Assembly: GCA_030833445.1 (NCBI GenBank)
Contig: JAURHD010000005.1
Location: 1-64,000, forward strand
Length of the DNA: 64,000 nucleotides
Source of the DNA: Cephaloticoccus sp.
GTDB taxonomy: Bacteria; Verrucomicrobiota; Verrucomicrobiia; Opitutales; Opitutaceae
Direction of reading: 5' to 3'
Made by a program: the position numbers and the translations under genes. Positions 11,363-14,163 of this stretch are shown here, in pieces. The notes beneath the pieces are model-generated. The model had not been told where the DNA came from. It saw only the letters and a list, made by a program, of their open reading frames with translations, and made no database searches. The stretch's first letter is position 1. The number at the start of each line of letters is the position of its first letter.

Positions 11363-12238
11363 ATGATTTATTTGCTCGGAGGCTCAGGATATGTGGGAGC
11401 GGCCTATCAGGCACTTCTACAGCGCAAAAGTATCCCGTTTCGTAATCTGCGACGGGCGGAATTCGACTATACCAATACGGATGCCCTTGCCGATTTATTG
11501 CGGACTGAAAAGCCTGATTTTCTGATCAATGCTGCCGGTTACACGGGCAAACCCAATGTCGATGCGTGTGAATTGCATAAGTCAGAATGTCTTTTTGGTA
11601 ATGCGGTGCTCCCAGGCCGTGTGGCGGAAGCCTGCACTGCCGCGGGTGTGCCATGGGGACATGTTTCTTCCGGTTGCATCTACACCGGCGCACGCCCGGA
11701 CGGCTCTGGATTTACGGAAACCGATTCGCCCAACTTCAGTTTCCGCACCAATAATTGCTCGTTTTACAGTGGCACCAAGGCATTGGGTGAGGAAATCCTC
11801 GCCAACCGAAACGACGTCTTTATCTGGCGTCTGCGCATCCCATTCGACCACCATGAAGGCCCGCGCAACTATCTCACCAAGATGATGCGTTATGAGCGTC
11901 TGCTGGAGGCCGCCAATTCCATTTCCCAGCTGCACGAGTTTGTCGCCGCCACCTTTGCATGCTGGGAAAAACGTGTGCCCTTTGGCACTTATAATGTAAC
12001 CAATCCGGGACAGGTCACCACCCATGAAATCGTCGATTTGATCCTGGCCAGTGGGGTCTGCTCCAAGGACTACTCTTTCTTCACCGACGAAGCCGAGTTT
12101 ATGCGCACCGCGGCTAAAACCCCTCGATCCAATTGCGTAATGGACTCCTCCAAGCTTCAGGCCACCGGAATAAAAATGACCGAGGTCCACGAAGCAGTCG
12201 CCCGCGATCTCAGCAATTGGGTCAAAGTAAATTCCTGA
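11363..12238 (+). CDS. NRS/ER-like dTDP-4-keto-6-deoxyglucose 3,5-epimerase/4-reductase
   Basis: This SDR of 291 aa is the likely last enzyme of dTDP-L-rhamnose synthesis. The NADPH-binding motif GGSGYVG is at 6-12 and the catalytic Y135-S-G-T-K139 is intact. Unlike RmlD, it carries GYTGKPNVDACELHK (59-73), SSGCIYTG (102-109), PRNYLTKMMRYERL (167-180) and TPRSN near the C-terminus. I recall the same blocks from plant NRS/ER (UER1) and the C-terminal half of RHM, which do both 3,5-epimerisation and 4-reduction. Cys105 and Lys173 fall where a Cys and a Lys were proposed as the epimerase acid/base pair in the plant enzyme. The gene is followed 6 bases later by rmlB and then rmlA, with no rmlC or rmlD, which supports the bifunctional assignment. 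Activity is inferred. Confidence 0.75.
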   Translation: MIYLLGGSGYVGAAYQALLQRKSIPFRNLRRAEFDYTNTDALADLLRTEKPDFLINAAGYTGKPNVDACELHKSECLFGNAVLPGRVAEACTAAGVPWGHVSSGCIYTGARPDGSGFTETDSPNFSFRTNNCSFYSGTKALGEEILANRNDVFIWRLRIPFDHHEGPRNYLTKMMRYERLLEAANSISQLHEFVAATFACWEKRVPFGTYNVTNPGQVTTHEIVDLILASGVCSKDYSFFTDEAEFMRTAAKTPRSNCVMDSSKLQATGIKMTEVHEAVARDLSNWVKVNS

Positions 12239-12244
12239 CCGACC

Positions 12245-13240
12245 ATGAACATCCTCGTCACCGGCGGCGCCGGCTTCATTGGCAGCAATTTCGTCCACTA
12301 TACTCTGCAACACCGGCCGGAGTGCAGGATTACAGTGCTTGATGCACTGACCTATGCGGGCAGCCGCACCAGCTTATCCGCCGCGGGTAACCAAGTAGAG
12401 CTAATCGTAGGACGCATTGAGGATGCCACGCTGATCGATCGCCTGGTCGCCGCCTGCGATCTCGTTGTCCATTTCGCCGCAGAGTCCCATAACGACAACT
12501 CGATTGCCAATCCCCTACCCTTCGTCACCACCAATGTCGTTGGCACCTTCACTCTGCTTGAGGCCGTCCGCCGCCATGGCCGGCGTTTTCATCATGTCTC
12601 CACTGACGAGGTGTTTGGGGACCTGGAATTGGACGATCCGGAACGCTTCCGGGAAACCACCCCCTACAACCCTTCCAGTCCCTATTCCGCTACGAAGGCC
12701 GGTTCTGATCTTCTGGTAAAGGCGTGGATCCGCACGTTCGGGATCAAGGCCACCATCAGTAACTGCTCAAACAATTACGGCCCCTATCAGCACATCGAGA
12801 AGTTCATCCCTCGCCAGATCACGAATGTGCTGAGTGGAACCAAACCCAAGCTTTATGGCGCCGGCCTCAATGTGCGCGACTGGATCCACGTCGACGATCA
12901 CAATGCTGCCGTCTGGGCCATCCTCGACCGCGCCAAACCCGGCAGCTATTATATGATCGGCGCCGACGGTGAGCAGAACAACAAGACCGTTGTCGAGCTG
13001 ATCCTTGAGCTGCTCGACAAACCGGCTGATTGGTATGACCACGTTAACGACCGGCCCGGACACGACATGCGTTATGCCATCGACGCAGCCAAGATCCGCA
13101 ACGAGCTCAGTTGGACGCCCCGCTACACAACCTTCCGCGACGGTCTCGCATCCACCATCGCTTGGTATCGTGACCATTCCGCCTGGTGGCAGCCGCTCAA
13201 AGCCGAAGTCGAGGCCCGCTACGCCAAGCAAGGTCAGTAA
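12245..13240 (+). CDS. rmlB: dTDP-glucose 4,6-dehydratase
   Basis: The enzyme converts dTDP-glucose to dTDP-4-keto-6-deoxyglucose, the second step of dTDP-rhamnose synthesis, using tightly bound NAD. It has 331 aa, the usual length. Visible are TGGAGFIGS (6-14), [11 protein letters not shown] (77-87), the dehydratase triad T120-D121-E122 in HVSTDEVFG, and Y147-S-A-T-K151. [16 protein letters not shown] and [13 protein letters not shown] are diagnostic RmlB blocks. The HNDNS form, rather than HVDRS, is the variant I associate with actinobacterial-type RmlB. It lies between the NRS/ER-like gene and rmlA with short spacing, so the three form one cassette. Confidence 0.96.
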
Positions 13241-13251
13241 TCATTCAACTC

Positions 13252-14163
13252 ATGCCTGTCCCCACAAATTCCTCCGCTCGCAAAGGTATCATACTCGCCG
13301 GTGGCTCCGGCACCCGGCTCTATCCCCTGACTATCGCGGTCTCCAAGCAACTCATGCCGGTCTATGACAAGCCGATGATCTATTATCCGATCTCAGTGCT
13401 CATGTTCGCCGGTATTCGAGAAATCCTGATTATTTCCACCCCCACCGACCTGCCTAATTTTCGTAAACTATTGGGTGACGGATCTAATCTCGGCCTAAAC
13501 TACACCTACGCCGAACAACCCAGCCCAGACGGCCTTGCCCAAGCTTTTACCATTGCGGCCGACGTAGGCTTCCTCACCGGAAAGGAGCCCTCGGCCCTGA
13601 TCCTTGGAGATAACCTGTTTTACGGTCACGATTTCGCCGACTCGCTGGCCGAAGCTGACACCCGCACGAAAGGTGCCACGATTTTCGGCTATCATGTCGC
13701 GAATCCAACCGCCTATGGGGTGGCCGAATTCGATTCAGCTGGCAAGGTAGTCTCGCTCGAAGAAAAGCCCGCCAAGCCGAAATCCAATTACGCAGTTCCC
13801 GGGCTTTATTTTTACGATCAGGACGTGGTGGCATTAGCCCGGGCACTGAAACCATCCGCCCGCGGTGAATTGGAAATCACCGACCTAAACCGCCTCTACC
13901 TTGAGCGCGGCGACTTGCACGTTGAACTACTGGGAAGGGGAACCGCCTGGCTCGATACTGGCACCCATGACTCCCTGATGCAGGCAGCCCAATTTGTGGA
14001 AGTGCTGGAAAACCGCACCGGTCTCAAAATCGCTTGTCTGGAAGAAATCGCCTACCAGAAGGGGTGGATCGATGCCGAGGGGATGCTCGCCAATATCAGC
14101 AAACTCGGCAAATCCTCCTACGGCTCATATCTGAAGCAAGTGCTCGAAAACGTCCGTCGCTGA
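13252..14163 (+). CDS. rmlA: Glucose-1-phosphate thymidylyltransferase
   Basis: This enzyme makes dTDP-glucose from dTTP and glucose-1-phosphate, the first step of the dTDP-rhamnose route. From the ATG at 13252, 11 bases after rmlB, it has 303 aa; the open frame extends further upstream but would overlap rmlB. Diagnostic blocks are KGIILAGGSGTRLYPLT, SKQLMPVYDKPMIYYP, AEQPSPDGLAQAF, LILGDNLFYGHDF, EEKPAKPKSNYAVPGLYFYD, GELEITDLN and TAWLDTGTHDSLMQA. All expected catalytic and binding motifs are intact. Together with rmlB and the NRS/ER-like gene it would give a complete dTDP-L-rhamnose supply in three genes. Confidence 0.97.
   Translation: MPVPTNSSARKGIILAGGSGTRLYPLTIAVSKQLMPVYDKPMIYYPISVLMFAGIREILIISTPTDLPNFRKLLGDGSNLGLNYTYAEQPSPDGLAQAFTIAADVGFLTGKEPSALILGDNLFYGHDFADSLAEADTRTKGATIFGYHVANPTAYGVAEFDSAGKVVSLEEKPAKPKSNYAVPGLYFYDQDVVALARALKPSARGELEITDLNRLYLERGDLHVELLGRGTAWLDTGTHDSLMQAAQFVEVLENRTGLKIACLEEIAYQKGWIDAEGMLANISKLGKSSYGSYLKQVLENVRR

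Follow-up and report, generated by a model that had tools for sequence, protein, structure and literature searches.

Can a bacterium build L-rhamnose on a deoxythymidine diphosphate (dTDP) carrier with three genes where the textbook pathway has four, with RmlD acting after RmlC? The question is raised by a 64,000-nucleotide stretch of a Cephaloticoccus sp. genome (Opitutaceae, Verrucomicrobiota; contig JAURHD010000005.1), hereafter the window, in which a gene for a short-chain dehydrogenase/reductase (SDR) at 11363–12238 stands directly upstream of rmlB and rmlA. We consider it very likely that this SDR is bifunctional, serving as both epimerase and reductase in a three-gene dTDP-rhamnose cassette. 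Its family is spread more widely than a first-pass annotation of the window had it.

The cassette and its bifunctional candidate

All three genes lie on the plus strand. The SDR gene (11363–12238) starts with ATG and encodes a 291-residue protein predicted to act, within one domain, as dTDP-4-keto-6-deoxyglucose 3,5-epimerase and 4-reductase; rmlB, for dTDP-glucose 4,6-dehydratase (12245–13240), follows after 6 bp, and rmlA, for glucose-1-phosphate thymidylyltransferase (13252–14163), after another 11 bp. The products of rmlB and rmlA pass their NCBIfam equivalog cut-offs (449 bits on TIGR01181, cut-off 365; 473 bits on TIGR01207, cut-off 361), bearing out the three-gene cassette described in the first-pass annotation, and the SDR motifs quoted there, GYTGKPNVDACELHK, SSGCIYTG, PRNYLTKMMRYERL and TPRSN, are all present in the open reading frame translation. 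An upstream GTG at 13186 was set aside as the start of rmlA in favor of the likelier ATG at 13252. The closest named relatives of the SDR are mostly Opitutaceae and other Opitutia records at 75–77% identity, the top one being a metagenome-assembled genome (MAG) labeled Akkermansia muciniphila. Chance or misassembly was rejected as an explanation of the locus, since the gene and the gene order recur in many genomes.

By sequence, structure and tree, the SDR belongs to the NRS/ER family. In sequence searches of the PDB its best matches were Arabidopsis NRS/ER (4qqr, E 5e-36) and mimivirus L780 (7jid, E 1e-19), ahead of RmlD (4wpg, 1e-10), while on the rmlD equivalog TIGR01214 it scored 82.5 bits and did not pass the cut-off of 224. 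Pfam finds a single RmlD-type SDR domain and no RmlC domain, so the earlier description of a "fused" epimerase/reductase does not hold. An AlphaFold2 model built from a 54-sequence alignment (mean predicted local distance difference test score 96.2) was compared with known structures using VIA-align; the best match was 7jid (Z 35.4, root-mean-square deviation 1.8 over 277), followed by 4qqr (Z 30.8, 2.0 over 263) and the best RmlD (Z 29.8, 2.5 over 269), the latter two being only 1 Z apart. A quick tree of 112 rows, in which RmlD was the only other SDR family included, united the family with the plant enzymes and the mimivirus UDP-rhamnose synthase (uridine diphosphate, UDP) in one clade (Shimodaira–Hasegawa-like approximate likelihood ratio test support 100), split from nine RmlDs. 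The proposed grouping with plant NRS/ER, apart from RmlD, is thereby upheld.

The residues proposed for epimerization tell the same two groups apart. Cys105 and Lys173 had been said to sit where the plant epimerase residues lie, and the alignment agrees, pairing them with Arabidopsis Cys115 and Lys183. They also align with Cys111 and Lys178 of the 7jid chain, which, on subtraction of three tag residues, would be L780 Cys108 and Lys175; a review reports those L780 residues to be catalytic by mutagenesis (PMC9614988). Conservation was counted over 271 loci and the window, with 18 of the 270 pattern-found members excluded as shorter than 240 residues; the search pattern spans residues 59–70 only, so that the catalytic columns were not directly selected for. 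All 252 full-length pattern-found members have Cys105, Lys173 and Tyr135, and 251 have Lys139. Two members from outside the pattern were also read, one keeping all four residues (L073) and one keeping Cys, Tyr and Lys139 (L075), which brings the totals over the members examined to 254 of 254 for the epimerase Cys and 253 of 254 for the Lys. Tyr and Thr occupy the Cys105 and Lys173 columns in all nine usable RmlDs, one of the ten loci in that comparison set being too short.

With high confidence, though short of certainty, we interpret the cassette as a minimal dTDP-L-rhamnose operon in which a bifunctional NRS/ER-type SDR replaces both RmlC and RmlD. By the standard chemistry of their families, RmlA would make dTDP-glucose and RmlB would dehydrate it to dTDP-4-keto-6-deoxyglucose. 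Cys105 and Lys173 of the SDR would epimerize C3 and C5, and in the same active site the Tyr135–Lys139 pair with NADPH would reduce C4 to give dTDP-L-rhamnose, which would serve the glycosyltransferases of the locus. We infer both SDR activities, the dTDP substrate and the L-rhamno product.

The rest of the source genome (2.92 Mb, 97.75% complete) was searched for the two genes that the cassette lacks. It has no match to PF00908, the RmlC family, in a search that was positive in 11 of 14 control genomes, and no TIGR01214 match for rmlD at 1e-40 (8 of 20 candidates scored). There are 14 PF04321 matches (26 of 26 candidates scored), the best of which is the cassette SDR itself at 93 bits, the next scoring 72. 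Five others (L002, L004, L005, L006 and L008) resemble GalE-, epimerase- or HSD-type SDRs on reading, four are window SDRs at 1178, 6535, 12245 and 17193 that do not reach an rmlD cut-off, and the remaining four (C6, C12, C70) score about 31 bits or less and fall outside the set that was read. RmlB was found once at 1e-60. The genome thus holds rmlA and rmlB of the canonical rmlABCD set, and neither rmlC nor rmlD was found in it, an outcome in favor of the first-pass annotation; a hidden RmlC or RmlD elsewhere in the genome was rejected on the PF00908, PF04321 and TIGR01214 searches together with the reading of the five SDRs.

Occurrence in the phylum and beyond

We sampled 288 genomes of the phylum, calling carriers of the NRS/ER-type gene at 1e-20 and RmlD at 1e-40. 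The gene is carried by 35 genomes, RmlC by 195 and an RmlD match by 231, with RmlD over its cut-off in 184. RmlC occurs in 7 of the 35 carriers versus 188 of the 253 non-carriers (Fisher p 7e-10) and RmlD in 8 of 35 versus 223 of 253 (p 2e-15), both p-values ignoring relatedness. RmlB is over its cut-off in every one of the 35 carriers.

Gene order recurs along with gene content. RmlA and RmlB both lie within 6 kb of the NRS/ER-type gene at 26 of 36 phylum loci (window included), 13 of which share the upstream glycosyltransferase; one further locus has RmlB only, one RmlA only and eight neither. At the cut-offs used, none of the 36 has RmlC or RmlD within this distance. A genome of the same family without the NRS/ER gene (G099) has, at the corresponding locus and in the same order, glycosyltransferase–RmlC–RmlD–RmlB–RmlA (L089, G099:C1:5175000-5194500, with the swap genes at 8012–12970). 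One gene is here exchanged for two, and this is the strongest argument other than an assay for a bifunctional SDR.

The window RmlB (12245–13240) is 89% identical to that of one genome, G091, and 42–48% identical to the RmlBs in the same slot of other family members, while in the same comparison RmlA (66–83%) and NRS/ER (52–81%) are closer. Because RmlB is less like its same-slot counterparts than the other two proteins are, it appears that rmlB was swapped within the window cassette.

Outside the phylum sample, we used a degenerate form of the 59–70 pattern; of the 35 carrier regions (L054–L088), 33 fit it. It found at least 116 stretches in named genomes and at least 120 in viral contigs, and the family model matches all 270 pattern-found proteins, those of the window and the phylum loci among them. 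The 116 genome matches listed comprise 77 from Verrucomicrobiota, 10 from Peregrinibacteriota, 9 from Planctomycetota, two each from Magasanikiibacteriota and Uhriibacteriota, one each from Myxococcota, Altimarinota and Chlamydiota, 11 from bacteria without an assigned phylum, and two from archaeal MAG contigs; eight of these loci repeat a phylum-set gene over 140 residues, and 109 of the 120 viral genes are distinct. The label "plant-like" was therefore right about the relationship to NRS/ER and too narrow for a family that the pattern search finds broadly in bacteria and viral contigs.

Among the matches listed, RmlA and/or RmlB lies within 6 kb at 61 of the 120 viral loci, at 63 of the 77 verrucomicrobial and all 9 planctomycetal loci, and at 7 of the other 30. 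Within that distance, neither RmlC nor RmlD was detected at any of the 236 listed, of which 85 had flanks of at least 2 kb available on both sides and 216 on at least one side; three loci with no gene match above 60 bits (L160, L202 and L268) were counted as having nothing near. Slightly beyond the 6-kb limit, a Rhodopirellula locus (L227) contains a partial RmlC-like stretch. At 15 ordinary RmlC/RmlD loci of the phylum, used as a control, both proteins were detected in 11 and RmlD alone in 4; the same detection could miss distant phage RmlCs.

Nineteen proteins from nine viral contigs were compared with PHROGs, and the matches singled out three contigs. Near its rhamnose genes L106 encodes a phage primase and a terminase large subunit, and by this gene content is a tailed phage; L127 (DnaB-like helicase, phage primase) and L125 (phage single-strand binding protein) are very probably phages. 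Among INPHARED phages, the window protein had no match at 1e-12 and a phage member used as query gave two weak unannotated records; a plasmid search gave no match. The available part of a 2025 study of Patescibacteriota phages names rmlB and rmlD, not rmlC, among their genes (PMC12911398), and an NRS/ER family member carrying an rmlD label would fit that report. Phage "rmlD" labels may likewise hide complete rhamnose pathways in our viral contigs (L090–L209).

Competing explanations and origin

An SDR that is a 4-reductase only, hence RmlD by function, with 3,5-epimerization left to an unrecognized epimerase elsewhere in the genome, would agree with the RmlD-type fold and the Tyr/Lys pair, with the full RmlC kept alongside an NRS/ER-type gene in one genus (G042) and with the Arg that replaces the epimerase Lys in L075, but it has to be set against the one-for-two swap in G099, an epimerase Cys and Lys that are near-strictly kept and are absent from nine RmlDs, and searches that found no RmlC-family protein in the source genome or in 27 other carrier genomes. 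We regard it as improbable. Slightly more improbable in our estimation is an enzyme that has both activities and makes a different 6-deoxy-L-hexose, for example 6-deoxy-L-talose by the opposite reduction at C4, or that epimerizes only one carbon. Stereochemistry is unreadable from sequence, and giant-virus Mg535 has the Cys yet shows only C3 epimerase activity (PMC9614988), so enzymes of similar kind may differ in what they do; the window SDR, however, has both the Cys and the Lys, its mimivirus clade mate and the plant enzyme yield L-rhamnose products (PMC9614988 and PMC9415975, respectively), and the swap in G099 is with RmlC and RmlD.

Several observations count against the replacement of RmlC and RmlD by a bifunctional SDR, among them the near tie between 4qqr and RmlD in structure, the neglect of relatedness in the Fisher tests and the short flanks at many of the 236 loci, with less than 2 kb on a side at 118 genome and viral ones, which limit RmlC/RmlD detection. 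One member, L075 (in G158), keeps the Cys and has Arg in the Lys173 column, and further variants of this kind might turn up with a different pattern, because L075 itself lies outside ours. At 1e-40 an RmlD match of some kind is present in eight carriers, and an RmlC-type protein occurs in seven, six of these RmlC matches being strong: four genomes of one genus (G042, G054, G072 and G152), G257, G271 and, weakly, G045 (5e-8). In G045 there is also an RmlD match at 9.5e-68, and an RmlD-like protein lies near the weak RmlC match. The RmlC of G042 scores above the rmlC cut-off, and near it (L336, 5177–7529) is a protein resembling glucose-1-phosphate cytidylyltransferase that narrowly misses the cut-off of its own family; the genome has a stand-alone NRS/ER gene as well; a mixed pathway is possible there, and in this genus the SDR could be a reductase only, working with RmlC. 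The RmlC of G257 has a CDP-glucose 4,6-dehydratase and a C-methyltransferase as neighbors, that of G271 lies near a C-methyltransferase, and both score below the rmlC cut-off, so that they look like parts of other deoxysugar pathways. Finally, three genomes, G116 and G207 (both of the window's genus) and G260, have RmlB with neither an NRS/ER-type gene nor RmlC, so RmlB alone is no proof of rhamnose.

The L075 member (7732–8667) has no rml genes within the 10.6 kb examined, and its function has possibly changed. The G116 (L333) and G207 (L334) loci contain rmlA–rmlB without NRS/ER and without RmlC, and a further genome, G080, has none of RmlB, the NRS/ER-type gene and RmlC.

In the 112-row tree, a Lokiarchaeota MAG contig and a Dependentiae contig fall together with the plant and mimivirus enzymes, and Patescibacteria are their neighbors. 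The nesting of the plant/mimivirus group inside prokaryotic diversity is not secure, because an approximately unbiased test on 72 rows did not reject a topology uniting the prokaryotic and viral rows to the exclusion of that group (p 0.41). Among the matches listed, the closest relative of plant NRS/ER is a gene at 741–1610 of the 3.6-kb Lokiarchaeota MAG contig (L252; 58% identity), which may be eukaryotic contamination, and the next closest is on the Dependentiae contig (L290). A recent transfer from plants was rejected: the same taxonomic family has 19 homologs spread over 18 other genomes, at 74–80% identity in 17 cases and at 55 and 61% in two, versus about 30% for the plant enzyme.

That verrucomicrobial homologs exist was known before. 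Yin et al. 2011 reported that the C-terminal domain of plant RHM has four homologs in bacteria, each of them from Verrucomicrobia, and suggested that the donor prokaryote may have had the C and D functions in one gene, calling the origin unknown (PMC3220709); in the open-access literature, we found no later treatment of bacterial NRS/ER homologs. As far as that literature goes, there is apparently no description of the cassette with rmlA and rmlB, of RmlC being excluded, of the swap of one gene for two, or of members in Planctomycetota, Patescibacteria and phages. We give even chances to a broader proposal: the two-in-one enzyme would represent an old family of prokaryotes and phages (Verrucomicrobiota, Planctomycetota, Patescibacteria and tailed phages), would form a complete dTDP-rhamnose pathway of three genes that needs neither RmlC nor RmlD, and would be the pool from which plants and giant viruses drew their enzymes. 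If so, a phage "rmlD" without rmlC would be part of a whole rhamnose pathway and not a fragment.

Neighboring genes and comparison with known systems

The cassette is flanked by two plus-strand family-2 glycosyltransferases (PF00535). The upstream one (10541–11299), labeled DPM1-like, adjoins the cassette in 13 of the 36 phylum loci. The downstream one (14215–15153), for which all NCBIfam matches fall below their cut-offs, is a possible user of the rhamnose donor. On the minus strand, 16085–18293 encodes a DegT-type aminotransferase and an SDR; these make up a second nucleotide-sugar module, which might use the same dTDP intermediate.

According to a review, what a single enzyme does in plants and giant viruses takes two in bacteria (PMC9614988). 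If the cassette works as we read it, this rule fails in 35 of the 288 sampled phylum genomes, in the members from Planctomycetota and Patescibacteria, and in some phages. The cassette would then be the kind of bacterial donor operon, with a single gene for C and D beside rmlB, that was postulated earlier (PMC3220709). Genomes and viromes described as having rmlB and rmlD but no rmlC might contain complete rhamnose pathways.

Among known enzymes, the window SDR shares with RmlD its fold, the Tyr–Lys pair and the position beside rmlB and rmlA, and differs from it in clade, in lacking the Tyr and Thr that RmlD has at the Cys105 and Lys173 columns, and in scoring far below the rmlD cut-off. GDP-L-fucose synthase (GMER/Fcl), of the GDP-mannose branch, is likewise a single SDR with epimerase and reductase activities, its second epimerase residue being His. 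Two of its structures (1e7s and 1bws) are Foldseek matches to the SDR model, but the sequence match is weak (24 bits on NCBIfam against a cut-off of 500). The haptophyte RmlCD also carries out both steps with one polypeptide, yet is a true fusion of RmlC-like and RmlD-like parts (PMC6556577), whereas the window SDR has no RmlC domain. Closer are the Arabidopsis NRS/ER (UER), the second-best structure match, and the C-terminal domain of RHM, SDRs of about 300 residues with aligned Cys, Lys, Tyr and Lys in the same clade; unlike these plant enzymes, which favor UDP substrates (PMC6556577), the window SDR is expected to use dTDP, because its neighbors are rmlA and rmlB. Mimivirus L780 (7jid), the best structure match, differs in its low identity (25%) and in preferring UDP, though it accepts dTDP (PMC9614988), and resembles the window SDR in that its mutagenized Cys108 and Lys175 align with Cys105 and Lys173.

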